Of a stretch of 40,049 bases of DNA, positions 6,452 through 39,573 are shown one piece after another (the first letter of the stretch is position 1; every line of letters begins with the position of its first letter). The DNA lies in IMG/VR virus record IMGVR_UViG_3300020442_003398, positions 1-40,049 of that record. One strand, written 5' to 3'. Source of the DNA: a virus. The position numbers were made by a program, and so were the translations under genes. Below the pieces are notes generated by a model. That model was not told where the DNA came from. It was given only the letters and a program-made list of their open reading frames with translations, and did not search any database.

Positions 6452-6497
6452 AAACAATTTCAACAGAACAAATTGTGTATTTGTGAGGAAAAATATT

Positions 6498-7163
6498 ATG
6501 AAAATTACAAGAAAAGAATTAAGAGAAGTGATACAAGAAGTTGCCAATGAACTTGGTTTATTTGAAGGGTTAACCAAGGCACAAGAAAAGTTACCCGAAC
6601 CACTCAAGAAAGCAATTCTAAAAAAACAAGAAGAAGATGATACTACCACAGACTCCGAAGACGAGTCTTTGAATGAAGGAAACGCATGGGGTGCAGCTAT
6701 TAAAAAGGCACGGGACGAAAATCTTAAAGAATTTGAATTCAACGGAAAAAAATATAAACTAACCGAGAAAAAAAAGAAAATAAATGAAGACGATACTTCT
6801 GAGTTTGTCGGTGACGCAAATATTGAAGATGTTGATGAAGGAAATGCGTTTGGTGCGGCCGTTACTAAAGCAAAAGAAGACGGTGAAGATGAATTTGAAG
6901 TAGATGGTAAAACATATAAAGTAAAGGAAGACATATGCCCAAGTTGTGGAGAACAACCTTGTGTGGATGAAGCAAGTTGTTCAGAAGAAGATGAAGAGGT
7001 TGAAGAAGGTAATGCATTTGGTGCAGCCGTAACAAAAGCAAAAGAAGACGGAGATACGGAATTTGAAGTAGACGGAAAAACTTATAAGGTTCGTGAAAAC
7101 TGGACAAAAATAAAACTTTCTGAAAAGTTAGATAGAATTCTAGGAAATCGTAAAATTTTGTAA
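6498..7163 (+). CDS. Head-region protein with three EGNAFGAA-type repeats
   Basis: The 221-aa protein starts at ATG 6498, chosen over a GTG at 6483 because GAGG at 6485-6488 is well spaced for 6498 and the resulting N-terminus MKITRKELREVIQEVANE is the helix shared by head-region genes. Three copies of a repeat of about 31 residues follow, starting near residues 60, 114 and 170. Each runs EGNA(F/W)GAA, then a KA(K/R)-x-(D/E) segment, then F-E-F/V-x-GK-x-YK. Acidic linkers separate them, and one linker carries CPSCGEQPC, a possible metal site. I have the impression that GNAF...GKxYKV repeats occur in other environmental phage head proteins, but I know of no tested function. The basic faces could bind DNA; this is a guess. 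Confidence 0.75.
   Translation: MKITRKELREVIQEVANELGLFEGLTKAQEKLPEPLKKAILKKQEEDDTTTDSEDESLNEGNAWGAAIKKARDENLKEFEFNGKKYKLTEKKKKINEDDTSEFVGDANIEDVDEGNAFGAAVTKAKEDGEDEFEVDGKTYKVKEDICPSCGEQPCVDEASCSEEDEEVEEGNAFGAAVTKAKEDGDTEFEVDGKTYKVRENWTKIKLSEKLDRILGNRKIL
6675..7100 (+). repeat. Three coding repeats of about 31 residues
   Basis: Copies begin at 6675, 6837 and 7005. Copies 2 and 3 agree almost throughout (EGNAFGAAVTKAKEDG, then EFEVDGKTYKV). Copy 1 is more diverged (EGNAWGAAIKKARDEN). The DNA is less conserved than the protein, so the repeats appear old and under selection. Confidence 0.8.
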
Positions 7164-12052: not shown

Positions 12053-15000
12053 ATGGATTATGATAAAGTAAATAATCCGTTTATTACACTACGGAATCAT
12101 AAAACAGATAAAGAATTTACGGTTGATTTAAGTAAAGATGTACCGAATGTTGTAAATGATCCGAATATGTCTAATCTTAAAAAATCAAATCATGCTTTAT
12201 ATTCTGATAATCGTGCTGAAAAATTAAGATGGGGTGATGATGTAAAAACATTCGGTAATTATAGTATAACTTTAGTAGACATTGATAATATAATTTATGA
12301 GTATTTTACAAAAGTAATAAATCCAACTGTAACCGACACGAACAATACAAAAATAAGTGTACCTGTAAGACACGCATCACCCGAAAGATGGAGTGCAATT
12401 CAAAGTGATGGTAGATATAGAGATGATAAAGGTCAACTTCAAAGACCTGTCATAATATTCACACGAACAAGTGTTGCAAGAGACGAATCATTTGTAACAT
12501 TTAATAAGTACCTTTCAGTTCCAGTTGTCAAAAAATTTAGTAGCAAGAACGCATACGATAGAATAAGTTTACTTAACAATGCAGAACCACTGCATGAAAT
12601 ACACAATGTAACATTTCCGGATCATGTAGTATTAACTTACGATTTTAATATGAACACAGAGTATGTTCAACAAATGAATCAGTTAATTGAAACTATTAAT
12701 TTTGCAGAGAATGATTATTGGGGTGATCCTGCTAGATTTAAGTTTCGTGCATCAATTGACTCATTTACGAATTCCGTGGAAACACCATCGGATGATGACA
12801 GATCGGTAAGTTCAACATTTAGTGTTACCGTAAATGCTTATTTATTACCATTAGTATTTGATAACCAAACAAACATTAAAAGAGGTCTTAGTACACGGAA
12901 AGTGATTTGGGGAACTGAAGCACAAAGTGTGGTGGTTGATGAACTAGGAAAACCCGTTGCCCACACACAACAAGAACTATCAATAGATTTTAAAAAAAAA
13001 GATATAACGACAGAAAAAAGTTTGATTTTAAGTCGTAAAACTCAGAAAGTATATTTAAGAAGAAACGATGGTGAATCATTTGTTATAAGAATCTGGAGAG
13101 ATCAACCAACATATACAATAAATGTAGAAGGTCGTAATTTCATAGTAAACATTGAAGAACTTGAAAATAAAATAATATGGGATTTAGGTGTCTCTGAAAT
13201 AGAAGTTATACCAAATAGTCAATACGATATAGAGGTTGGTAGAGGTAATAAAATTCAACTAAGCACTTCAACTGCATTAGAAACTTTTTTAATAAAATTT
13301 TTACCATACGAACACCCGACCCCAACACCAGAAAAAACACCAACTCCAATTCCACCACAACCAACACCAACTCCTAAACCTCCAATTCCAACTAAAACAC
13401 CAACACCAACACCCGAGCAACCTACTCCAACTCCAGAGCAAATAATTCCAATCGAGACACCGACACCCGAGCAACCTACTCCAACTCCAGAGCAAATAAT
13501 TCCAACTGAGACCCCAACTCCAACTTGTGATCCACATAGTCACGATGAAACACCAACTCCTGATCAACCTACTCCAACTCCAGAACAAATAATTCCAATT
13601 GAGACACCAACTCCTACGTGTGGACCAGATCATCATGATGAAACACCTACATCAAGGGAAAAAAAAACACCGACTCCACTTGATACACCAACTCCAACAG
13701 AAACAATAACCGAAACAAAAACTAATATACCCACTTTAACTAAAACACCAACACCGACACAAACTGATACACCGACTCCAACGGATACACCAACACCGAC
13801 ACAAACTGATACACCAACACCATCTCAAACCGATACACCGACTCCAACAGATACACAAACTCCGACTCCAACGGATACACCGACTGATACACCAACTTCA
13901 ACTCAAACCGATACACCAACTGATACACCAACTTCAACTCAAACCGATACACCAACTGAAACTCCAACTGATACACAAACTTCAACAGATACACCGACTC
14001 AAACTCAGACACAAACCGAGACACCGACACCTGAATCAACTCCTACACCGACACCAATTCCACACTATGAATTAGAAACTTCATCCGACATAATAAATGA
14101 AGGAGATGCTTTAGTGGTTACTCTAAAGACAATTAATGTTCCGGTTGGGACCAGCGTGGGATATGCAATATCAAATCCAGACGATTTCGGTAAAACTTTT
14201 ACTGGTGAATTTATTGTATCTGATAATGGCAATACCTCCATTACATTTTCTCCAATAGAAGACTATAAAACAGAGGGTACGGAAACACTCATATTAGAAC
14301 TTATAAGTTCAAGTATAGGGGGTAACCAATGGCAAAATAATAGAATTTCAGTAGAGATAAGAGACACTTCAGTGCCACCTGTTTATGAACTTACATCATC
14401 TTCATTGGAAATAGAGGAAGGTTCTGAAGTTACAATAACATTAAGAACCGTAAATGTTCCGTCTGGAACAGATGTAAGTTATGTAGTTACAAATAGAGAT
14501 GACATTGGAATGCTAGATTTAGTTGGCAGTTTTACAGTTGGTGAAGATGGAACTGCATCAGTTTCGTTTGTACCAATAGAAGATTTTAAATTAGAAGGAA
14601 ACGAAACCTTTAAACTAGAATTGGCTGGTTCAAGCACTGGTAGAGACGAGTGGAAAAATGTAAGTATAGAGATTTTGATAATAGATTCTTCTGTACCAAC
14701 TCCAACTGATACACCAACTTCAACTCAAACCGATACTCCAACTGAAACTCCAACTGAAACTCCAACTGAAACTCCAACGGATACACCAACTGAAACTCCA
14801 ACGGATACACCAACTGAAACTCCAACTGAAACTCCAACGGATACACCAACTGAAACTCCAACGGATACACCAACTGAAACTCCAACTGAAACTCCAACGG
14901 ATACACCAACTGAAACTCCAACGGATACTCCAACTGAAACTCCAACTGAAACTCCAACGGATACACCGACTCCTAAGTCAACTCCTACACCGACACCAAT

Positions 15001-16210
15001 TCCACACTATGAATTAGAAACTTCATCCGACACAATAAACGAAGGAGATGCTTTGATCGTTACACTTAAGACAATTAATGTTCCGAGTGGAACTAGAGTA
15101 GGTTACGCAATGTCAAATCCAGACGATTTCGGTAAAACTTTTACTGGTGAATTTATTGTATCCGATAGTGGTAACACCTCTATTACATTCTCACCAATAG
15201 AAGATTATAAGACAGAGGGTACGGAAACACTTATATTAGAGCTCATAAGTTCAAGTGCAGGAGGTAATCAATGGCAAAATAATAGAATTTCTGTTGAGAT
15301 AAAAGATACATCAGTACCACCTATTTATGAACTCGTATCTTCGTCTTTAGAAGTAGACGAAGGTTCTGAAGTTACAATAACACTAAGAACCGTTAATGTT
15401 CCAACTGGAACAGATGTAAGTTATGTAGTTACAAATAGAGATGACCTTGGGGTGTCGGACTTAGTCGGTAGTTTTATAATTGGTGAGGATGGAACTGCAT
15501 CTGTAACATTTACACCAAAAGAAGATTTTAAGTCAGAGGGAAATGAAACCTTTAAATTAGAATTGGCAGGTTCGAGTACGGGTAGAAATGAATGGAAAAA
15601 TGTAAGCATAGAGATTTTGATAATAGATTCTTCAGTTCCAACACCCACTCCAACCGAGACACCAACTGAAACACCTACTCCAAAACAAACACCAACCCCA
15701 ACTCCAGAACAAACTCCCACACCAACTGAAACACCTACTCCAAAACAAACACCAACTCCAACCCCATTACCACAACCAGAAGAAACACCAACCCCAACTC
15801 CAGAGCAAACCCCCACACCAACAGAAACACAAACAGAAACACCAACCGAGACACCAACTGAGACACCAACTGAAACTCAGACTGAAACAATTACATCAGA
15901 ACCTTTGCAAGTAAAATTATATATAGTTTCAATTTCAAATGATTCAAACCCGTATACCTTAACGCAAGATGATTTAAACGGAGATTTAAATCCAACTATT
16001 ATTGAATATACGAGTGGTGATGAAATATCAACGGACCAACAATCAGTATTTTTAATATCAGATGAAGAATTGTGTTATAGTGCAGTTATTGAATTTTCTG
16101 ATTATGAAATAGAATCTTATACCTTGCCATTAATCGGACAGATGCAAGAAGAGTATTATTACAGTATACCATATAAAAGAATAAAACGCATCGAAATCAG
16201 TATTTGTTAA
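12053..16210 (+). CDS. 15: Tail terminator, T4 gp15-like, with Calx-beta/Pro-Thr extension
   Basis: Residues about 60-285 match T4 gp15, the ring that caps tube and sheath and joins the tail to the neck: KISVPVRHASPERWSAIQ, then VVLTYDFNMNTEYVQQMNQL, FKFRASIDSFTNSVETPSDD and SSTFSVTVNAYLLPLVFD, in T4 order. T4 gp15 is 272 aa; this protein is 1385 aa. A beta-rich segment (285-420) comes next. Pro-Thr linker 1 (about 422-670) leads to a pair of Calx-beta-like domains (671-882), each with EGD or EGS...TLRTVNVP, G-x-F and EGxET(L/F)xLEL. Linker 2 (883-984) and a near-copy of the domain pair (985-1195) follow, then linker 3 and a 100-residue C-terminal domain. Calx-beta domains usually bind calcium and occur in adhesins. 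Exposed collar fibres that help adsorption are inferred. Confidence 0.85.
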   Translation: MDYDKVNNPFITLRNHKTDKEFTVDLSKDVPNVVNDPNMSNLKKSNHALYSDNRAEKLRWGDDVKTFGNYSITLVDIDNIIYEYFTKVINPTVTDTNNTKISVPVRHASPERWSAIQSDGRYRDDKGQLQRPVIIFTRTSVARDESFVTFNKYLSVPVVKKFSSKNAYDRISLLNNAEPLHEIHNVTFPDHVVLTYDFNMNTEYVQQMNQLIETINFAENDYWGDPARFKFRASIDSFTNSVETPSDDDRSVSSTFSVTVNAYLLPLVFDNQTNIKRGLSTRKVIWGTEAQSVVVDELGKPVAHTQQELSIDFKKKDITTEKSLILSRKTQKVYLRRNDGESFVIRIWRDQPTYTINVEGRNFIVNIEELENKIIWDLGVSEIEVIPNSQYDIEVGRGNKIQLSTSTALETFLIKFLPYEHPTPTPEKTPTPIPPQPTPTPKPPIPTKTPTPTPEQPTPTPEQIIPIETPTPEQPTPTPEQIIPTETPTPTCDPHSHDETPTPDQPTPTPEQIIPIETPTPTCGPDHHDETPTSREKKTPTPLDTPTPTETITETKTNIPTLTKTPTPTQTDTPTPTDTPTPTQTDTPTPSQTDTPTPTDTQTPTPTDTPTDTPTSTQTDTPTDTPTSTQTDTPTETPTDTQTSTDTPTQTQTQTETPTPESTPTPTPIPHYELETSSDIINEGDALVVTLKTINVPVGTSVGYAISNPDDFGKTFTGEFIVSDNGNTSITFSPIEDYKTEGTETLILELISSSIGGNQWQNNRISVEIRDTSVPPVYELTSSSLEIEEGSEVTITLRTVNVPSGTDVSYVVTNRDDIGMLDLVGSFTVGEDGTASVSFVPIEDFKLEGNETFKLELAGSSTGRDEWKNVSIEILIIDSSVPTPTDTPTSTQTDTPTETPTETPTETPTDTPTETPTDTPTETPTETPTDTPTETPTDTPTETPTETPTDTPTETPTDTPTETPTETPTDTPTPKSTPTPTPIPHYELETSSDTINEGDALIVTLKTINVPSGTRVGYAMSNPDDFGKTFTGEFIVSDSGNTSITFSPIEDYKTEGTETLILELISSSAGGNQWQNNRISVEIKDTSVPPIYELVSSSLEVDEGSEVTITLRTVNVPTGTDVSYVVTNRDDLGVSDLVGSFIIGEDGTASVTFTPKEDFKSEGNETFKLELAGSSTGRNEWKNVSIEILIIDSSVPTPTPTETPTETPTPKQTPTPTPEQTPTPTETPTPKQTPTPTPLPQPEETPTPTPEQTPTPTETQTETPTETPTETPTETQTETITSEPLQVKLYIVSISNDSNPYTLTQDDLNGDLNPTIIEYTSGDEISTDQQSVFLISDEELCYSAVIEFSDYEIESYTLPLIGQMQEEYYYSIPYKRIKRIEISIC
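13316..14062 (+). repeat. Pro-Thr linker 1 with two Cys-His islands
   Basis: About 249 codons of TPTP, TPEQ, TDTPT and similar low-complexity repeats in the gp15-like gene. Two copies of PTPTC(D/G)PxxHDET interrupt it, bringing Cys and His residues together, and a short EQIIPxETPTP unit recurs three times. Confidence 0.85.
14063..14696 (+). repeat. Calx-beta-like domain pair, copy 1
   Basis: Encodes two adjacent domains of about 105 residues each (HYELETSSD... and YELTSSSLEI...). The pair recurs 942 bases further on (314 codons), starting at 15005, with most residues conserved but many silent base changes, so the duplication is not recent. Confidence 0.85.
14697..15004 (+). repeat. Pro-Thr linker 2 with a 60-bp minisatellite
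   Basis: Contains three consecutive 60-bp units: 14761-14820 and 14821-14880 are identical, and 14881-14940 differs at one base. A partial fourth unit follows. Each encodes a 20-residue block of alternating TPTE and TPTD. Near-identity at the DNA level points to recent expansion by recombination or slippage. Confidence 0.95.
15005..15636 (+). repeat. Calx-beta-like domain pair, copy 2
   Basis: Second copy of the domain pair at 14063-14696, with the same order of segments (INEGDALIVTLKTINVP, then EGSEVTITLRTVNVP). Differences are mainly silent or conservative, which indicates selection to keep both copies. Confidence 0.85.
15637..15900 (+). repeat. Pro-Thr linker 3
   Basis: About 88 codons of TPTE, TPKQ and TPTPEQ repeats linking the second Calx-beta pair to the C-terminal domain. 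TPKQTPTPTP occurs twice, at spacings that suggest local duplication. Confidence 0.85.
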
Positions 16211-20195: not shown

Positions 20196-20687
20196 ATGGC
20201 AGAAGTAATAGATGTAAACGAAATGTTTTTTACGGCATTTGAACCGAAAACAGCAAATAGATTTATTATGTATATGGATGGTTTACCAGCATATCTTATT
20301 AAATCAGTAACCCGTCCTAATCTCAATATTGATCCAGTGACAATCGATCACATCAATATCAAAAGAAAACTCCGTGGAGGTAAAGCAGAGTGGCAGGACA
20401 TCACAATGACACTTTATGATCCGGTAGTACCAAGTGCGGCTCAGGCTGCTATGGAATGGATTCGTCTCTCCCACGAATCGGTAACCGGTAGAAATGGTTA
20501 TGCTGACTTCTACAAGAAAGACTTGACTTGTAACCTTTTGGGTCCTGTCGGTGACAAAGTAGAAGAATGGACAATCAAGGGTGCATTCTGTACCGCAGTT
20601 GACTTTGGAACATTAGATTGGTCAACAGGTGATCCTTTGAATGTTAACTTGACTGTTGCGTATGACTACGCAATTCTTCAATACTAA
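20196..20687 (+). CDS. 19: Tail tube protein, T4 gp19-like
   Basis: The 163-aa protein has the same length as T4 gp19 and forms the hexameric rings of the inner tail tube. Family segments include FEPKTANRFIMYMDGLPAYLIKSV near the N-terminus, KLRGGKAEWQDITMTLYDPV in the middle, and a C-terminal TAVDFGTLDWSTGDPLNVNLTVAYDYAI-type block. A GGAG ribosome binding site precedes the start and codon use is biased like the other abundant proteins. A strong terminator follows, so the gene is probably transcribed as its own short unit, consistent with very high tube demand. Confidence 0.95.
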   Translation: MAEVIDVNEMFFTAFEPKTANRFIMYMDGLPAYLIKSVTRPNLNIDPVTIDHINIKRKLRGGKAEWQDITMTLYDPVVPSAAQAAMEWIRLSHESVTGRNGYADFYKKDLTCNLLGPVGDKVEEWTIKGAFCTAVDFGTLDWSTGDPLNVNLTVAYDYAILQY

Positions 20688-20714
20688 GAACAAAAAAAAA
20701 CTTGGTTGTATTTT

Positions 20715-20742
20715 AAAAAAACTCCCTTTGGGGAGTTTTTTT
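20715..20742 (+). terminator. Intrinsic terminator after tail tube gene
   Basis: CTCCC pairs with GGGAG around a TTTG loop, extended by seven A-T pairs and ending in a T-run. A clear intrinsic terminator between the tube gene and the next promoter-like element. Confidence 0.93.
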
Positions 20743-20751
20743 GTTTTTGTA

Positions 20752-20765: not shown

Positions 20766-21107
20766 ATGAAATCTGAAAATCTTAAAACGCAAATACTTGA
20801 TCTTTTTGAAGAAATCAAGCATGAAAAGAAAACTGAATTACAACTTGAGGGATTAAGTAGTGCGTATGCAAAACTTGCAAAATTTTTATTAAAGCAAGTA
20901 AGAGGTGGAAAATTAAGTCGCAATTATGATATTGATGATAATTCTGGAAGAATGGTTTTCCAAACAGGAAGTGGCAAGAAGATTGTTTTCAATGATATGA
21001 AACTAGGTGTTACTGCAAATAAAACATGGAAAGGTAAAAAGGACAACGAGTTCTTTAATTACAATGACCATGATAAAATATTAAAATTTGCTCTTGCTGA
21101 CATTTAA
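20766..21107 (+). CDS. Small protein of unknown function downstream of tube gene
   Basis: The 113-aa product starts at ATG 20766. A longer frame open from 20706 is rejected because it would begin before and run through the terminator. The N-terminal part is helical (LKTQILDLFEEIKHEKKTEL, then LSSAYAKLAKFLLKQVRGGK). The C-terminal part looks like a small beta unit (NSGRMVFQTGSGKKIVFNDM). No family is recognised. There is no Shine-Dalgarno sequence, and the promoter-like element lies 4 bases upstream. It sits between the tube gene and the tail assembly genes, which suggests a tail-related role by position only. Confidence 0.65.
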   Translation: MKSENLKTQILDLFEEIKHEKKTELQLEGLSSAYAKLAKFLLKQVRGGKLSRNYDIDDNSGRMVFQTGSGKKIVFNDMKLGVTANKTWKGKKDNEFFNYNDHDKILKFALADI

Positions 21108-21198: not shown

Positions 21199-22110
21199 AT
21201 GGAAAACGAAGATAGTATTAAAATCCCAAATGAGGTTCGTGCAGCTATGCAAACTGATAACACGACTACGAGTAAAACAGAAACTACTCAGTCAAACAAA
21301 TCAGATACTACTGCATTTCAGCAACAAACAGACGCAGTTCAAAAAACCGAGTACCCAAGTGAGGTTGTAGATTTGCCAAGTAAAGGTTGGTTTTATGATC
21401 AAACAAGTCCACTTGCAAGTGGTAGAGTTGATGTTAAGTACATGACTGCAAAAGAAGAAGATATTCTTACAAGTCAAAATCTTATCAAAAAAGGAATTGT
21501 TCTAGATAAACTTCTTGAACAACTTATTATTTCACCTGGTGTTAAATTAGATGACATCTTGGTTGGAGATAAAAATGCAATATTTATTGCGGCTCGTGTT
21601 CTTGCATATGGAAAAGACTATAAGATTAAGTTCAAAGACCCATCCACAGGTGACGATGTAGAAGATACAATTGATCTTACTAAATTAGAACCACGTGAAA
21701 TAAACTTTGAAAACTTTAATCGTGGAGATAATATTTTTGAATATACTCTTCCACATAGTGAACGAGTTCTTCATTGGAAGTTGTTGACACACCAAGATGA
21801 ACAAGCAATCGATGCAGAGTTGAAGGGTTTAAAGAAGTTTACGAAAAACAAAAATGAAACATCAGAAGTAACCACTCGTTTAAAGTATGTAATTAAAGCA
21901 TTAGATGGTGACGATGATCGTGCTAGAATCAAAAGTTTTGTTGATAAGGAATTACTTGCACGTGATAGTTTGGCATTTCGTGAGCATATCAAAGAAAATA
22001 CTCCTGATTTGGATATGACATTTAACTTTGAATCCGAGGATACAGGATATACAGAAAGGATGACGATCCCATTAGGGGTCGACTTTTTTTACCCTTCCGC
22101 CGGAGTATAG
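21199..22110 (+). CDS. 26: Baseplate/tail assembly protein, T4 gp26-like, frame 1
   Basis: The 303-aa protein has a Thr/Gln-rich disordered N-terminus (1-55), then a block I associate with gp26-type proteins of T4-like cyanophages: VDLPSKGWFYDQTSPLASG, then VKYMTAKEEDILTSQNLIKKG, LIISPGVKLDDILVGDKNAI and ARVLAYGKDYKIKF (residues about 58-145). The gene lies between tail tube and tape measure, where many tailed phages encode frameshifted tail assembly chaperones. It ends with PLGVDFFYPSAGV. A second frame overlaps its 3' end without a start codon, and a T7 run in the overlap allows slippage, so a longer 374-aa product is likely. A chaperone for the tape measure or hub is inferred. AAAAAAGG upstream serves as ribosome binding site. 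Confidence 0.8.
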   Translation: MENEDSIKIPNEVRAAMQTDNTTTSKTETTQSNKSDTTAFQQQTDAVQKTEYPSEVVDLPSKGWFYDQTSPLASGRVDVKYMTAKEEDILTSQNLIKKGIVLDKLLEQLIISPGVKLDDILVGDKNAIFIAARVLAYGKDYKIKFKDPSTGDDVEDTIDLTKLEPREINFENFNRGDNIFEYTLPHSERVLHWKLLTHQDEQAIDAELKGLKKFTKNKNETSEVTTRLKYVIKALDGDDDRARIKSFVDKELLARDSLAFREHIKENTPDLDMTFNFESEDTGYTERMTIPLGVDFFYPSAGV

Positions 22111-22324
22111 AATAAGTCTCCACGAAGAGATTTTTAATCTCTGCTATTATAGTGAAGGTGCTTTCAATCAAAGCATAGTGTATAATATGCCTATATATCT
22201 GCGTAGGTTTTACTCAAAGAAGTTACTTGATGTTAAGACTAAAGAAAACGAACAAGTAAAAGCTCAACAAGCAAAAGCAAAAACAAGTTCATCTGCACCT
22301 CGTTCAAGACCCTCATTTAGATAG
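22076..22324 (+). CDS. Probable frameshift extension of gp26-like gene
   Basis: This frame is open from 22076 to TAG at 22322-22324 and is +1 relative to the gp26-like gene. It has no ATG, GTG or TTG before GTG 22178, yet its protein looks real from the overlap onward (LPPEYRISLHEEIFNLCYYS, then VYNMPIYLRRFYSKKLLD, ending in a Lys/Ala/Ser-rich tail). It resembles the short downstream parts of frameshifted tail chaperones in layout. The seven T at 22084-22090 let a tRNA-Phe on TTT re-pair one base forward, or two bases back, to enter this frame. A single extra T from sequencing error would explain it equally well. Confidence 0.65.
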   Translation, partial: GSTFFTLPPEYRISLHEEIFNLCYYSEGAFNQSIVYNMPIYLRRFYSKKLLDVKTKENEQVKAQQAKAKTSSSAPRSRPSFR

Positions 22325-22396: not shown

Positions 22397-22675
22397 ATGG
22401 AAAAAAATAAAAACACTAATAAATCGTCTTTGAATGAAGAGCATTTAATTAATGAATTTATCGGAAAACTTGCTACTGCTATTTTTAATAATAAAGCAAA
22501 AAAGTTGTCAAAAAAAGCGTTTAGTGATCCACGATTAACTAAAGTATTTGACAAGTATGTTGAAGATACAAAAAAGTTTAAGGATGAATTAAAACGTCTT
22601 GGTCTAACAAGTACAACGGATTTAAAAAATGCCATAAATAAAGATCCTAACTTGAAACCATTTGTTGATGTATAA
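22397..22675 (+). CDS. Small helical protein before tape measure gene
   Basis: The 92-aa, Lys-rich protein is predicted helical throughout (EEHLINEFIGKLATAIFNNK, then AKKLSKKAFSDPRLTKVFDK and DTKKFKDELKRLGL). It has no Cys, signal peptide or membrane segment. It lies 10 bases before the tape measure gene and probably shares its mRNA, which would fit a small assembly factor. No family is recognised and no function is assigned. Confidence 0.65.
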   Translation: MEKNKNTNKSSLNEEHLINEFIGKLATAIFNNKAKKLSKKAFSDPRLTKVFDKYVEDTKKFKDELKRLGLTSTTDLKNAINKDPNLKPFVDV

Positions 22676-22685
22676 TAGTTGACAT

Positions 22686-25600
22686 ATGGATATTTTAGAC
22701 GTAAACGATTTTACAAGCCAACTGCAAAAGTCGGTTAAGGATAATCTTACGCCTGAAATAACAAAAGTAAATGATCTTACAAAAGAATTTAAAAATTCTG
22801 TAATTGAAGGAAATTGGTCGGTTGCAATAGATTTAGTAGGAAGTGATAAAGTAAAAGAAATAAACACAGAACTTACAAGTAGTAGTGCATATTTTGAAAA
22901 AATTAAAAGTGAATCATCGTTAATTAATGAGCAATTAAATAAAGCAGTAAGTAAATCTGAGTTGAAAAACATCATTTCTGATAAGCAACTTGATTTAACT
23001 CAAAGAATTGCAAATGCAGGAAATTTGATAAAAGAATCAAACGAAGAAACTATACCATCTCTTCAAGCACAAATTCAACAAGAGCAAACCAAGTTATCGT
23101 TGCTTAATTTAAATGATTCAAACTATGCTTCTCAGTTAGAGACTGTAAATCAATTAGAAGAATCTCTTGTTCGTGAAAACGCACGAACTGCAAATTTAAT
23201 AGGTCAGCAACAAGCACTTACCAATTTAAAAGATGTAGAATTACAAAAATTGACGGACATAGTTAACGGCGGTGGTCAAATGTCTGCCATTTATACAAAA
23301 CTAGGTCAATATAGTAATGACTTAATAAAATCATCCGAGCAAAATTTACAAGTCAATATGGACTTACGAGATGTAATGTCTGAGATGGGTAATAATAAAA
23401 AAGAACTTATCGATGGTGCTAAAGATGTAATTGATGAATATACAGAAGGTTTAAGCAAAATAGGACAAGGAATTGAAAGTGCATTTTCTTCGTTACCTGT
23501 GGTTGGAGGAATGTTGTCTGCTATGGTAAAAGGACCACTTGAAGAAGCAACTAAAACTGCACAAGGAAAACTTAGAGATGCATTGATAAATTCGGGAGAT
23601 GCTACAAAGGCATTAACAGACGGAGTTTCTGCATTTGGTTCTGGTATAGCAAGTATCGGAAAATCAATTGGTGGTCTTTTGGTAAATCCAATATTTTTGA
23701 TAGTAGCAGCTTTTGGAGCATTTTTGATGTTACTTAAAAGTGCATACGATGAATTGGGTAAAATAGAAGAAGCCGGACGAGAGTTTAGATTTTCTATGGG
23801 AGCATCTGCTGAGTCTACTTTGCAAATGCGAGAAATGATAAAAGCAAATAGAGATCAATTTGCTGGATTTGGTGTATCAATCGAGGATTCAACAAAAGCA
23901 GCTTCTGCTCTTGGTGATGTATTTTCAAGTCACAATTATATACAAAAAGATACACTTGATACGGTTGTATTATTAGAAAAACAATTTGGTATAGCCGCTG
24001 AATCTTCTGCCAGTGCAATAAACAATGTAATGAAAATCGGAGGTGTATCAGCTGCACAAGCAACTAAAATAATAACACACGCAGGTTTAGTTGCACAAAA
24101 ACATGGTTTAAATTTTGCTAAAATTATGGACGATGTGGCTAATGCAGGTGATGATGTTTTATTGTTTTCCGGAGGTTCTGCTAAAAATCTTGCAAAAGCT
24201 GCGGTGGAAGCAAGAAAAATGGGAACTTCGATTGAAGAAATGGCAAGTGCCGCTGATAGTCTTTTGGATTTTGAAAGTAGCATTAATGCACAAATGTCTG
24301 CGAGTACAATGTTGGGAAGAAATATAAATCTCAATCGTTTACGAGAACTTGCATTAGCAGGTGATGCAGAAGGAATGGCAAAAGAACAATTACGATTATT
24401 AAAAGAACAAGGAGGAATTCGTAATTTAAATCGTTGGCAACAAAAATCACTTGCCGAAGCAATGGGTGTTGAACTAAGTACACTTTACAATTTAGAAAAA
24501 ACAGAACAACAACGGGTTCAAAGACAAGCAGATTTGGAAAAACTAGCAAAGGAAGGAAATAAAGATGCAATAAAACAGCTAGCTCTTCAAGAAAAGAAAG
24601 TTAAAGAAATACAAAAGTCTTCTTCTGAAATTCTTGCAGAAGAACTCCGAAAATCAGAGGAACTTGAGCAACAGACAGCAATGCAAAACAAAATGAATGA
24701 AGCAATGCTTGAGTTAAAACAAACTTTATTACCAGTTGTGCAAGATTTAATGCCAACATTTTTAAATATCGCAAAACTTCTTCCACCGATATTCAAAGGA
24801 ATCTCAGTTGCACTTGATTTCATAACTGCTCCGTTTCAATTAATTGTGGGATTACTAAATTCAATTCAAGATGGAGGAAAATCACTTTCAGATATGTTTA
24901 GTACAGATTTGGGTGGTATTTCAAAACTTCTTGTTGGTATTATTGGGGTGTTTATGATCGGTAAGAAATTACTAGGAGGATTTCCTAATATATTCACAGG
25001 TATTATTGATAAAATAAAAGGTGGATTTGGTGGAATAATGGACATGGTCAAAAGTCTCGGTGATGGAATTGGTAATACAATTAAAAATCTTTCAAAAGGT
25101 CTTGGTTCTGCACTCAATTACCTCGGAGCAGGAATCTCAGGTTTAGTTAAAAATATTGGTGACGGAATTGCTGGATTAGCAAAAGGAATCGGAAAGGGAA
25201 TTGGTGCAATATTTGATGGAATAGGAAAAGGAATTAAATCACTTGTTAGTAGTTTAGGAAAATTAAGTCCTGCTAATATGGCAAAAGCAGCGGTTGGTCT
25301 GTTATTACTTGCAGGTGCTATGTATGTATCAGCAAAAGCATTTCAAGAATTTGCAGTTGTTAGTTGGGAAGATATTGGAAAAGGAATTACTGGTATACTT
25401 GGATTGACAGGTGTTGCCTTATTATTATCAAAAGCATCTACTGCTATGATAAAAGGTGCAGTTGCAGTAGCATTGCTCGGTGCATCTTTAATTCCAGCTG
25501 CATATGCGTTTCAAATGTTTAATGAAGTTTCGTGGAAAGATGTTATATTTGGTGGAGTTGCAATTGGTATTCTAGCAGCTGCAGCGTTTGGGTTAGGAAT

Positions 25601-28600
25601 GATTATTGGACCAATAGCAATTGGAGCAGCTGCAATTGCTTTACTTGGTGCGTCAATAATTCCATTGGCATTTGCACTTAACTTAGCAGCTCCTGCTTTA
25701 GAATCATTTGGTAAAATATTTTTAGGATTTGCTTCTATAATGATAAAAGCACTTGAAGCAATAATAGGTGGAATTCTAAGTTTTGCAAAAATTGTCGGAG
25801 GTGTCATAATAAATGTAGTAAAATCTCTATCTGGAATAATTACTGCAATGGGAGATGCAATTGTTGGAGTTGTGACTGCAATTGGACAAGCAATTTCAGG
25901 TATAATCACAAGTATTGCAAATGGAATCGCAACGGTAATAGGATCAGTTTCTGGTGCTATTACTGCTATGGTTGATGACATAACTAGATTAAGTGAAATT
26001 GATGCAGTTAACTTAATAGCAGTTGCTGGAGGTATAGGAGCAGTTGGAGTTGCTCTTGCAAGTTTTGGAGTCGGTGGAGGAGTTGGAGCAGCTGCCTCGG
26101 GTGCAGGTAATGCAGTTGGTGCATTAGGAAATTCAATCGCAGGAGTATTTGGTGCAGACACAGACGAGTTAAATAAATCACCACTTCAAAAAATTCTTGA
26201 TTTCGCAAAAGAATCAGAATCAATTATATTGGTATCAGATAAAATTGATTCATTGTTAAATTCTTTTGATCGTCTTGCTGGTATGGAATCAATTTTAGAA
26301 ACAGCTGCTTCTGCATTACAAAAGTTTGGAGTTGCCTTGGCATCGTTTGGAGCAGGAAACGCGGCAGTTGGAATGGGAAATGCATTAGGGGCAATTGGAA
26401 ATAAAGTTGCTGGAATGTTTGGAGCAGATGTACCACAAGACCCAATTGATCAACTTATGGGATTTATTGATAAATTGGGTTCAGTAGATTTAAATGTAGA
26501 ATCACTTCAAATTCTAAGTGAATTAAACTTAGGAGGATTTCTAACTAACATAACTGATGATTTTGGTGATAAAATTGAAATGGTAAGTGAAGGAATGAGT
26601 GAAATCTTGGGAGTATTTGATAAAGTGAAACCATCGTCTGTCGTTTCGATGGAAAAAGTTTCAACTGGATTATCTACTTTGGTGGGAGGATTGGTTCGTT
26701 CGTTACCTAAATTAAAAACGAGTGACGCAAGAAGTTTAAAAGGTGTGGCAGATGCACTTGATGAATTTTTTGATGCTCTTGGTGATGTAAGTGCATCTAA
26801 AATAAAAGTCTTACCACAAATAGGTGTTGGAATAGTTCCTTTAATAAAAGATTTTGCTGAACTACCACTTGCTTCAATATCTGATGATGTAAGTTCTAAA
26901 ATGAATGACTTAGGAGATGGTATTTATCACTTCTTTAATGAACTTGAAGATGTGGATTTAGCAGTTTTACCTAACTTACCTACAATAAATGCAGGAATTA
27001 ATCCATTTATTACTGACTTCGCAAAAATTCCACTTGCATCAATTTCAGAAGATGTAAGTTCTATTATGAATAATATAGGAGATGGTATTTATCACTTCTT
27101 TGATGAACTAGCACCTACTGATCTGACTATTCTTCCAAAACTTACAACAATAACACAGGGATTAATACCATTCTTAAATGCATTTGGTCAAGTGAAATTA
27201 CCAGGTGAAGGTTTTGATACTATTTTAAAAGAACTAGGAAACGGAATTGAAGAATTTGCAGACTTCATAAATGACGGAGAGGCAGGAAAAATAAGTAAAT
27301 TCTTTAGAGATGCCGGAACTGCATTTCCTAGATTTGTTGATAGTATGGCAAATCTTGGAAGTGTCGGTGATGTAAGTATAGTAGGAAAATTAACTACATT
27401 GTCTGATATTTCAAATACACTTAATATAGATAATATTAACAAACTAAAAACATTCACATCTGGAATAGTTGATGCGATGAATTCATTTGCAGGAATACAA
27501 GACCCGGCAGTTGAAGCATTAAACGCAATTACAAGTGAGTTGTATATGTTGTGCGAAGTAATTGAAAAACTAGATGTTAGTAAGTTAAATCAATTAGAAA
27601 ATATAAACATAGGAGGTGTTCAAACTCCTATCAAAATTCCAGCAAGGAATCTACCACCTGCCGATCCGTTTATAGAAGGTAGTTTACCTGTCCGACCAAT
27701 GATTACAGACGGACCATCTCTCGCGGAAGTATTTGCAGTAGAACCACAACAACCTACTAAACCTGCGACAACTTCACTTGCAGAAGCATTTGCAGTGGAG
27801 GCACAAGCAACAACGACTACCGGAACTACTTCCCTTGCAGATGCGTTTGCAAATACTACAAAAACGGAAACGACTGATACTAAATACGAAATCTTTAAAG
27901 ATAGCATAACCAAGGAAATGGGTGATTTATCATCAGACCAATATGCTGAAAAACTCAAACTTTATATAAACACTAATAATGACTTGATACAAATGGGTCT
28001 TAACAGCCGTTATGGCACAGAACTTGATATAGATAAGTTTAGTCAGGAAAATAAATTCATGCAAAGAATGTTAGATGAAATTAATGCAGAAAAACCTATT
28101 ACTACCGAGAATGCGGAGGTAATTAAGGTTTCTCAAATACAAGGTGAGTTAATGTCAATGCCAGACTTAAATAATCAAATGCAATCAAACTTTGAAATGA
28201 TAGATTCAACTTCTACGCAACCCATTCCTCCAAGTTTTGATTTTGCTACGCAAAATACTTTACAAGCAACTGCTACTGCACCAACTAGTTTGATAACTAA
28301 AATTGCAGATTTTACGAGTAACTTATTACCTGACTTTAGTTTATTGGATTTATTTGCAGATGCAGACACTCCTACAACATCTAATAATATTGAACTAAGT
28401 GGTCTTGATACTATAAGTGTAAAGGGTCATAATGTGTTTGTTGAGGAGATTGCAAAGATAGTAAATAACGATACACCCACAACGGATGCAGAAAAAACTG
28501 AAGATAGTGCAAAGGTTGTAAAAAAATTAGATGAGTTGATTCTACTTATGAGAAGAGGTGGAATTTCTGTAAATATGGATGGAAGAAAAGTTTCACGTGC

Positions 28601-28625
28601 AGTGTCATCTGCAACTGATCAATAA
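22686..28625 (+). CDS. 29: Tail tape measure protein, T4 gp29-like position
   Basis: The 1979-aa protein occupies the tape measure position after the gp26-like gene. It has an N-terminal coiled-coil region (residues about 1-250), a strong hydrophobic helix near 330-356 (LVNPIFLIVAAFGAFLMLLK), and a second coiled region near 600-690. A Gly/Ile/Ala-rich hydrophobic middle (about 750-1130) includes GIGKGIGAIFDGIGKGI and AIGILAAAAFGLGMIIGP. Internal repeats lie near 1345-1490, and a low-complexity part has three SLA(E/D)xFA repeats near 1680-1730. T4 gp29 is 590 aa. With the usual ratio of about 0.15 nm per residue the tail could approach 300 nm, if the whole chain is extended. No peptidoglycan hydrolase domain was recognised. 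Confidence 0.88.
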   Translation: MDILDVNDFTSQLQKSVKDNLTPEITKVNDLTKEFKNSVIEGNWSVAIDLVGSDKVKEINTELTSSSAYFEKIKSESSLINEQLNKAVSKSELKNIISDKQLDLTQRIANAGNLIKESNEETIPSLQAQIQQEQTKLSLLNLNDSNYASQLETVNQLEESLVRENARTANLIGQQQALTNLKDVELQKLTDIVNGGGQMSAIYTKLGQYSNDLIKSSEQNLQVNMDLRDVMSEMGNNKKELIDGAKDVIDEYTEGLSKIGQGIESAFSSLPVVGGMLSAMVKGPLEEATKTAQGKLRDALINSGDATKALTDGVSAFGSGIASIGKSIGGLLVNPIFLIVAAFGAFLMLLKSAYDELGKIEEAGREFRFSMGASAESTLQMREMIKANRDQFAGFGVSIEDSTKAASALGDVFSSHNYIQKDTLDTVVLLEKQFGIAAESSASAINNVMKIGGVSAAQATKIITHAGLVAQKHGLNFAKIMDDVANAGDDVLLFSGGSAKNLAKAAVEARKMGTSIEEMASAADSLLDFESSINAQMSASTMLGRNINLNRLRELALAGDAEGMAKEQLRLLKEQGGIRNLNRWQQKSLAEAMGVELSTLYNLEKTEQQRVQRQADLEKLAKEGNKDAIKQLALQEKKVKEIQKSSSEILAEELRKSEELEQQTAMQNKMNEAMLELKQTLLPVVQDLMPTFLNIAKLLPPIFKGISVALDFITAPFQLIVGLLNSIQDGGKSLSDMFSTDLGGISKLLVGIIGVFMIGKKLLGGFPNIFTGIIDKIKGGFGGIMDMVKSLGDGIGNTIKNLSKGLGSALNYLGAGISGLVKNIGDGIAGLAKGIGKGIGAIFDGIGKGIKSLVSSLGKLSPANMAKAAVGLLLLAGAMYVSAKAFQEFAVVSWEDIGKGITGILGLTGVALLLSKASTAMIKGAVAVALLGASLIPAAYAFQMFNEVSWKDVIFGGVAIGILAAAAFGLGMIIGPIAIGAAAIALLGASIIPLAFALNLAAPALESFGKIFLGFASIMIKALEAIIGGILSFAKIVGGVIINVVKSLSGIITAMGDAIVGVVTAIGQAISGIITSIANGIATVIGSVSGAITAMVDDITRLSEIDAVNLIAVAGGIGAVGVALASFGVGGGVGAAASGAGNAVGALGNSIAGVFGADTDELNKSPLQKILDFAKESESIILVSDKIDSLLNSFDRLAGMESILETAASALQKFGVALASFGAGNAAVGMGNALGAIGNKVAGMFGADVPQDPIDQLMGFIDKLGSVDLNVESLQILSELNLGGFLTNITDDFGDKIEMVSEGMSEILGVFDKVKPSSVVSMEKVSTGLSTLVGGLVRSLPKLKTSDARSLKGVADALDEFFDALGDVSASKIKVLPQIGVGIVPLIKDFAELPLASISDDVSSKMNDLGDGIYHFFNELEDVDLAVLPNLPTINAGINPFITDFAKIPLASISEDVSSIMNNIGDGIYHFFDELAPTDLTILPKLTTITQGLIPFLNAFGQVKLPGEGFDTILKELGNGIEEFADFINDGEAGKISKFFRDAGTAFPRFVDSMANLGSVGDVSIVGKLTTLSDISNTLNIDNINKLKTFTSGIVDAMNSFAGIQDPAVEALNAITSELYMLCEVIEKLDVSKLNQLENINIGGVQTPIKIPARNLPPADPFIEGSLPVRPMITDGPSLAEVFAVEPQQPTKPATTSLAEAFAVEAQATTTTGTTSLADAFANTTKTETTDTKYEIFKDSITKEMGDLSSDQYAEKLKLYINTNNDLIQMGLNSRYGTELDIDKFSQENKFMQRMLDEINAEKPITTENAEVIKVSQIQGELMSMPDLNNQMQSNFEMIDSTSTQPIPPSFDFATQNTLQATATAPTSLITKIADFTSNLLPDFSLLDLFADADTPTTSNNIELSGLDTISVKGHNVFVEEIAKIVNNDTPTTDAEKTEDSAKVVKKLDELILLMRRGGISVNMDGRKVSRAVSSATDQ
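26735..27180 (+). repeat. Tandem repeats of about 55 residues in tape measure
   Basis: Two clear copies run PLASIS(D/E)DVSS, then GDGIYHFF(N/D)EL, a L-P-x-L segment and a GI/GL-x-PF stretch. A more diverged copy precedes them. Spacing is about 165 bases. Repeats in tape measures often mirror tail-length change by duplication. Confidence 0.75.
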
Positions 28626-38286: not shown

Positions 38287-39573
38287 ATGTTTATAGAAAA
38301 TCCAAATGATGCAAAGAAACTTATTTCTTTGCTCAATGATCAAACGAGTATTGTAAATTTGTATTATACCAAACCAAATATACATTCCGGTAAAAATATA
38401 CCTCTCGTTATGATGATATTCGTAAATCAAACTTACTATGTAGTTTCATTTAATCATCCTGATGCGATTAATATTCCAATTGAATTCTTGAACTTGGTAT
38501 ATGAAACAAACGGAAAAAAACTTATTTTTGATAGAAAGAAATTAAAATACCATGTACCAAAATTTAAAAATTGCGTAGATGCAACGATTTGTTCTTATCT
38601 ATCACTCAAAAGTGAACTTGACGGAAACTATATAGATTCAAGAGTAAAAGATTTTAGGTCTGTACCGATAATGATTTTATTTAAGCACTTCAAAAACCTA
38701 TGTCAATCCGTAGGAGATACTGAATACGAATCTAATTTGACAAAATATGAGCAAGATTTTTCAAATGCACTATTTGGGATTGAAAAAAACGGTTTATATG
38801 TTACCGATTTCAATTTAGGTGATTCTAACTTGGTTGATAATAATAATTTAGTATTTAGTCAGTATAATATGATGACTCCAACTGGTCGTCCAAGTAACGC
38901 ATTTGGGAATATAAACTTCGCTGCTCTGAATAAAAAGACAGGACAAAGAGATTGTTTTACAAGTCGTTTTGGAAATGATGGATTATTAATCATGGTTGAT
39001 TATGAAAGTTATCATTTGAGACTTTTAGCAAACTTTCTTGAATATGATTTACCCAAAACATCTTTACATGAGTATCTTGGCAAATATTATCACGGAAAAG
39101 ATACTTTGACTGAAGAAGAATATGAGTTATCAAAGAAAATAACATTTAATCTAATATACGGTGGTATATCCGATGATGTAAAAGAAAATGTTCCGTTTAT
39201 GAAAACTATATCAGAGTATGTTGATTCAGTTTGGAACTTTTATAATAAAAATAAATTTGTAGAAACATGGTACTATAAAAGAAAAATTGCATCTGTATTT
39301 TTTGGTGAAAAGATAAATTCATATAAAATATTTAATTATTTATTGCAGTCGGCCGAAACAGAAAAAAATTGTGAAGTTATTTTAAAGTTAAATGATTTTC
39401 TAAAAGATGTGCAATCAAAAATGATATTGTACACATACGATGCTTTTTTATTTGATGTGCATAAAAATGATTTTGAACTAATCAAAAAAATGCAACCGAT
39501 TATTACATCAAACGATAAGTATCCTGTACGTACTTACATGGGAAGAACTTATGGAGATATGAAGCAAATTTAA
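38287..39573 (+). CDS. Divergent family A DNA polymerase-like protein
   Basis: The 428-aa protein has family A polymerase motifs in order. TPTGRPSN near residue 198 corresponds to the TxTGRLSS segment. Motif A is MVDYESYHLR with Asp238, and motif B is KKITFNLIYG with Lys283, Phe287 and Tyr291 at the E. coli spacing of K758, F762 and Y766. Motif C is YTYDAFLFDV with Asp385. Both metal-binding Asp residues remain. The steric-gate Glu of motif A is His243, the O-helix Arg before Lys is Tyr279, and the HDE of motif C is YDA. Residues 1-170 look like a reduced exonuclease domain without clear catalytic acids. The far-T4 phage RM378 is known to use a family A polymerase split from its exonuclease. 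Replication or repair is inferred; activity is uncertain. Confidence 0.78.
   Translation: MFIENPNDAKKLISLLNDQTSIVNLYYTKPNIHSGKNIPLVMMIFVNQTYYVVSFNHPDAINIPIEFLNLVYETNGKKLIFDRKKLKYHVPKFKNCVDATICSYLSLKSELDGNYIDSRVKDFRSVPIMILFKHFKNLCQSVGDTEYESNLTKYEQDFSNALFGIEKNGLYVTDFNLGDSNLVDNNNLVFSQYNMMTPTGRPSNAFGNINFAALNKKTGQRDCFTSRFGNDGLLIMVDYESYHLRLLANFLEYDLPKTSLHEYLGKYYHGKDTLTEEEYELSKKITFNLIYGGISDDVKENVPFMKTISEYVDSVWNFYNKNKFVETWYYKRKIASVFFGEKINSYKIFNYLLQSAETEKNCEVILKLNDFLKDVQSKMILYTYDAFLFDVHKNDFELIKKMQPIITSNDKYPVRTYMGRTYGDMKQI

Follow-up and report, generated by a model that had tools for sequence, protein, structure and literature searches.

Two overlapping open reading frames of a T4-like phage, here called A and B, probably form a tail-assembly chaperone pair whose long form would be produced by a ribosomal +1 frameshift at a run of seven T (T7). 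Recoding into +1 at this run and a chaperone role of the lambda G/GT type had been proposed in a preliminary description, and both are supported by comparative sequence data. The frames lie in the IMG/VR virus record IMGVR_UViG_3300020442_003398, positions 1 to 40,049; this whole stretch of 40,049 nucleotides is called the window. Ordinary translation is expected to give a short form of 303 amino acids (TAC-N). In a fraction of the ribosomes the tRNA-Phe on the UUU of UUU UUU U would re-pair in +1 with the overlapping UUU, and reading would resume with ACC CUU CCG, giving a long form of 374 amino acids (TAC-NC). By analogy with lambda G/GT, the short and long forms may coat the tape-measure protein, the C-terminal extra part recruiting tail-tube subunits. 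The competing -1 slip would be blocked by the absence of a T before the run, and in the clade of the window a hairpin abutting the site is assumed to make slipping more frequent.

Gene organization

The 40-kb window derives from the genome of a T4-like phage, with matches to portal (gp20), protease (gp21), capsid (gp23) and sheath proteins. Gene A (21199..22110, plus strand) is T4 gp26-like, encodes the putative short form of 303 amino acids and terminates with TAG at 22108-22110, in agreement with the end given in the preliminary description. It matches PF12322 (T4_baseplate; T4 gp26/gp51 family) with E=7.4e-6 and 26.2 bits at a cut-off of 24.5 bits, and phrog_150 (baseplate hub) with E=1e-7. 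Relatives of A are encoded at 64 loci in IMG/VR. The predicted fold of A has a pLDDT of 81; of 576 solved chains compared with it, YqbN (3klu, Z 5.2) ranks first and the tail assembly chaperone of HK97 (2ob9, Z 4.9) second. This ranking was counted for the chaperone reading and the weakness of the scores (Z ~5) against it. A Foldseek comparison of the predicted fold with solved structures gave no match at E<0.001, and the profile of A gave no significant match to PDB sequences.

Both frames are located between the tail tube gene (20196..20687, plus strand; phrog_4542 tail tube, E=2.2e-24) and a 1979-aa ORF in tape-measure position (22686..28625, plus strand), whose counterpart by synteny carries the annotation tail tape measure protein in Flavobacterium phage immuto. 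The earlier placement between tube and tape measure is correct in position, but the interval further contains two short ORFs (20766-21107 and 22397-22675).

Frame B and coding selection

Frame B (22076..22324, plus strand) is the +1 frame and would contribute the C-terminal segment (TAC-C) to the long form. It is open from 22076 to 22321 with the stop codon at 22322-22324, and the post-slip residues start with ACC at 22091. As noted before, B holds no possible start ahead of 22178, the earliest ATG, GTG or TTG being the GTG at that position and the next one the ATG at 22187; the -1 frame closes almost at once, with a stop 5 nt beyond the stop of A. The fusion product measures 374 amino acids for a +1 shift, the size given earlier, and 375 amino acids for a -2 shift; the positions and counts of the preliminary description are thereby confirmed.

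The pN/pS ratio of the B region is 0.19 in the +1 frame and reaches 1.67 and 1.07 in the remaining frames, and in three sub-clades the +1 frame gives 0.19, 0.26 and 0.18, with the other frames above 1. By these ratios B is a real coding sequence, with purifying selection in the +1 frame only. The segment of B upstream of 22178 has a pN/pS of 0.23; being under coding selection, it must be translated from upstream, and no conserved start was found in the clade. Translation of the second frame solely as an extension of the first, the proposal of the preliminary description, is supported by the lack of a usable start, by the selection before the first possible start and by an in-frame fused copy in one relative (L046, see below). 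The fusion frame, the coding selection on it and the conserved site are documented by comparison of sequences.

Slip site

The T7 run (22084..22090, plus strand) stands in the DNA context GAC TTT TTT TAC and would be read GAC TTT TTT T|ACC. In a gapped pattern scan of public contigs exactly seven T were present in all 48 contigs matching the core pattern GGGGTCGACTTTT...ACCCTTCC; a run of six T, named earlier as the sign of one continuous gene, was not found. The codons from GAC through TCC are fixed in 24 diverged sequences, save one amino-acid change.

The slip sites of 111 +1 genes are TTTTTTT (84), TTTCTTT (19), CTTTTTT (3), TTTCTAT (2) and, in single cases, TTCTTTC, TTTTTTC and TTTTTTA. 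Every one of them offers a codon able to re-pair in +1, either UUU with UUU or UUC, or CUU with UUU; forward re-pairing of the latter kind occurs in RF2. At TTTCTAT and TTCTTTC the re-pairing of Phe two bases back is impossible and +1 is possible. TTTCTTT, TTTCTAT and TTCTTTC allow forward re-pairing and lack the homopolymer for polymerase slippage.

The base preceding the run in the 111 non-redundant +1 genes is C in 72, G in 26 and A in 13 cases and never T, versus 53.6 T predicted by the codon usage of the individual genes (102 of the 111 genes testable). Distant +1 genes (n=29) likewise show no T before the run versus 12.8 expected in the 23 that are testable, and their neighbouring codons do end in T. 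In the window C precedes the run, so the T TTT TTY heptamer of the -1 type is absent, and the general lack of T at this position indicates that the -1 heptamer has been removed in the +1 clade. As to the +1 features of the RF2 type, the A-site codon is TAC and not a stop codon, and GGGG lies 5-8 nt and not 3 nt upstream.

Hairpin at the slip site

A terminator-like hairpin, CGATCCC-ATTA-GGGGTCG (22064..22081, plus strand), ends 2 nt before the T7 run and was picked up blind by a terminator scan. In the clade of the window its minimum free energy lies far below that of synonymously shuffled sequences, none of 400 reaching so low a value. The blocks GAA AGG ATG ACG ATC and GGG GTC GAC TTT TTT TAC CCT TCC are nearly fixed in this clade; the stem codons are fixed, and the two codons between the blocks, which form the loop, are free. 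A consensus fold of 27 sequences suggests that GAAAGGA (22054..22060, plus strand) can pair with T7 and so extend the hairpin, but as this motif is invariant, covariation gives no support for its pairing. Because the stem is nearly invariant, covariation gives it thin support: G-C is replaced by U-A once, in L032, where the stem is shifted in register, and U-G by U-A once, in L039.

The L048 clade possesses a hairpin of different sequence in the same place. No strong hairpin was found by folding versus synonymous shuffles in most T7 relatives or in the TTTCTTT group, and a family-wide role of the hairpin was rejected, since a strong hairpin abutting the run is present in the clade of the window and in a few others only. 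A downstream hairpin in columns 103-119 of alignment A1 was also rejected; it falls on a conserved protein motif, and several sequences disrupt the pairing. For T4 gene 60, action of a 5' stem-loop on the ribosome has been documented (PMC5009743).

Distribution among relatives

The set was extended beyond the first 64 loci by scans whose queries came from Flavobacterium phage immuto, Microcystis phage Mel-JY01 and Bacillus phage SP-15. With B assigned by profile in both shifted frames, it lies in +1 at 217 loci and in -1 at none of the same group, so that the comparison of the overlap suggested earlier supports recoding into +1 at T7. The exceptions outside this assignment are the L046/L047 duplication, re-initiation in L072, the -1 group L061-L064, the truncated L029 and a junction deletion in L041. 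In a tree of 53 A domains, with some long branches and unsure details, the +1 users form essentially one clade, in which the re-initiating L072 and the duplicated L046 are nested; the -1 users lie outside.

L046 (3001-4754) carries tandem gp26-like genes, of which the second starts at a GTG overlapping the TGA of the first. This second copy is fused in frame to a B domain without a T run, so that an A-B fusion exists in nature as one ORF; the duplication parallels T4 26/51. In the jumbo phage LR756511 (L072, 3001-3930) A is prolonged beyond the FF motif and B restarts at TAATG with no frameshift. This re-initiation, a separate start of the kind named earlier as evidence against a fusion, is restricted to the outlying phages YC and LR756511 and is absent from the clade of the window. 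In L041 (3760-3790) about 110 nt are gone exactly over the A/B junction near the contig end; this may be a natural deletion or an assembly fault and is treated as a single outlier. In immuto (L066, 3848-3958) an annotated short hypothetical protein represents only the tail end of B, and Bacillus phage SP-15 has a short ORF at the corresponding place. The annotations of immuto, SP-15 and others, which lack the long form or give a short hypothetical ORF in its place, can be corrected on this basis.

The T4-like and chaperone setting of the preliminary description holds, but the -1 members at the same spot and the T4 pair gp26/gp51 had been missed. PF12322 is matched by both T4 gp26 and T4 gp51; T4 has two PF12322 genes, and P-SSM2, HTVC008M, KVP40, Atu_ph07 and PA5oct have one. 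In these single-gene phages A ends with NNT TTT TTC (or TTT), followed by a homologue of the gp51 tail in -1, which means that cyanophages, KVP40 and jumbo phages shift by -1 at this very spot, on T TTT TTC. A T precedes the run in all 90 of the -1 sequences checked, and AsFcp_4 and BUCT608 agree. In profile comparisons the +1 B matches the -1 B (hhalign, prob 93%, E 3e-7) and the -1 B in turn matches the C-terminal end of gp51 (prob 93%, E 2.7e-7); compared straight with gp51, the +1 B gives no significant match (prob 1%). By profile, A is homologous to T4 gp26/gp51, and the B part, linked stepwise through the -1 B, is probably homologous to the C terminus of gp51. One gene family would accordingly arrive at the same protein pair by -1 shift, +1 shift, re-initiation or gene duplication, the direction of the shift correlating with a single base adjoining the T run.

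Mechanism

The family-wide evidence favours a ribosomal +1 shift; the ribosomal level of the event, +1 instead of -2, the slip rate and the chaperone action are inferred. Two points were counted against a ribosomal slip: a hairpin 2 nt before the slip site would lie inside the ribosome or be unwound by it, and the stop of A is 17 nt beyond the T run, with no RF2-like stimulators. The preliminary description was right about the +1 frame and overlooked the terminator-like hairpin by T7, with which the slip may occur in RNA polymerase. We consider it rather unlikely, though a serious rival because the hairpin touches T7 in the clade of the window, that slippage is transcriptional and mediated by the stem-loop: with the polymerase on T7 the hairpin would sit in the RNA exit channel, one U would be lost, and the U6 mRNA would be translated normally into an identical 374-aa fusion. 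The blind finding of terminator-like geometry speaks for this, as do the strong synonymous selection on the hairpin in the clade of the window, the different-sequence hairpin of the L048 clade and the distance of 2 nt to the slip site, which fits RNA polymerase better than the ribosome. Roseiflexus IS630 has the same layout, a stem-loop by T5C5 removing one base (PMC5009743), and IS1447 slips at A7 (PMC6211511). Against it stand the lack of a strong hairpin in most T7 relatives and the TTTCTTT group, and the TTTCTTT, TTTCTAT and TTCTTTC relatives, which cannot realign in the polymerase; without context features such slippage has been reported for runs of about 9 (PMC5009743). That the long form of the window's clade derives wholly or partly from RNA polymerase dropping one U at the hairpin-pressed T7 is likewise a doubtful assumption; if true, recoding in this chaperone family would have passed from the ribosome to transcription with the site unchanged.

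The other explanations have much lower probability. A -2 ribosomal frameshift as in phage Mu, left as an option beside +1 in the preliminary description, would reach the same frame by a single tRNA stepping back on T7, adding one extra Phe; it is very unlikely, and +1 is preferred because Phe in the TTTCTAT and TTCTTTC relatives re-pairs at +1 and not two bases back. The predicted junction peptides are VDFFTLPPEYR with two Phe and VDFFFTLPPEYR with the third Phe of a -2 shift, and MTIPLGVDFFTLPPEYR for +1 or the loss of one U and MTIPLGVDFFFTLPPEYR for -2. Expression of B as a separate gene, from an internal start (22178 or a non-standard one) or by re-initiation at the stop of A, has precedents in the TAATG of YC and LR756511 and in an ATG near the stop of A in cyanophage B ORFs. 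It is very unlikely indeed and was rejected in the clade of the window, where the stretch before 22178 is under selection; 48 of the 111 relatives have no ATG, GTG or TTG within -45..+30 of the stop of A, and in the rest the positions vary. Homopolymers are error-prone, but a sequencing or assembly error in the T run of one continuous gene is refuted by the invariant T count and by the frame relation at 217 loci, non-homopolymer sites included. The family offers a clean natural system for what sets frameshift direction and for whether the target of a slip-site hairpin is the ribosome or RNA polymerase.

Comparison with known systems

Lambda G/GT uses a -1 shift. It resembles the window in its overlapping frames, the low-frequency fusion (lambda's) and the place between tube and tape measure; it differs in shift direction and is likened here by layout, not by sequence. 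For T4-like phages a short/long pair of tail-assembly chaperones was reportedly described by Vladimirov, Gautam and Davidson (2022, Virology 566:9-15); their two T4 chaperone genes are presumably 26 and 51, in agreement with the PF12322 matches. Chaperone recoding is known; a forward shift combined with a hairpin abutting the slip run seems to be a new variant, though Vladimirov 2022 may list +1.

According to the citing passages in PMC10885494 and PMC12846349, T4 had been assigned a short and a long tail-assembly chaperone before. The -1 shift at T TTT TTC and the T4 gene pair 26/51 are already published. The chaperones described in the citing papers share with the window PF12322, the place before the tape measure, the short/long pair and, in shifting groups, a poly-T slip; T4 is described there with the separate genes 26 and 51 and the others with a -1 shift at poly-T, whereas the window has +1 and no T before the run. 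Tail chaperones of different phages use -1, -2 or +1 (reviewed in PMC5009743), and +1 is "very likely" in the haloarchaeal myovirus HSTV-2, so that the kind is known and the case in the window is a variant. HSTV-2 infects a host of a different domain, and its likeness rests on shift direction, not on slip sequence. Other phage structural genes with a +1 frameshift agree with the window in direction, but are different genes that shift on a proline codon beside a stop or pseudoknot (PMC5009743). Roseiflexus IS630 shares the hairpin directly 5' of the slip run and the loss of one base giving +1; its T5C5 run lies in a transposase gene and its slippage was shown experimentally (PMC5009743), whereas the likeness in the window is one of geometry.

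Other features of the window

A terminator scan detected a terminator-like hairpin with a T tail at 20714-20743, directly 3' of the tail tube gene. Right behind the tail genes, the ORF 38287-39573 resembles DNA polymerase family A (E 7e-9). Past the neck genes, 12053-16210 encodes a 1385-aa protein, possibly an adhesin or fibre, with Calx-beta-like repeats (by eye) separated by long PTPTET linkers. The protein encoded at 6483-7163 contains three copies (by eye) of a repeat around EGNAFGAAVTKAKEDG.
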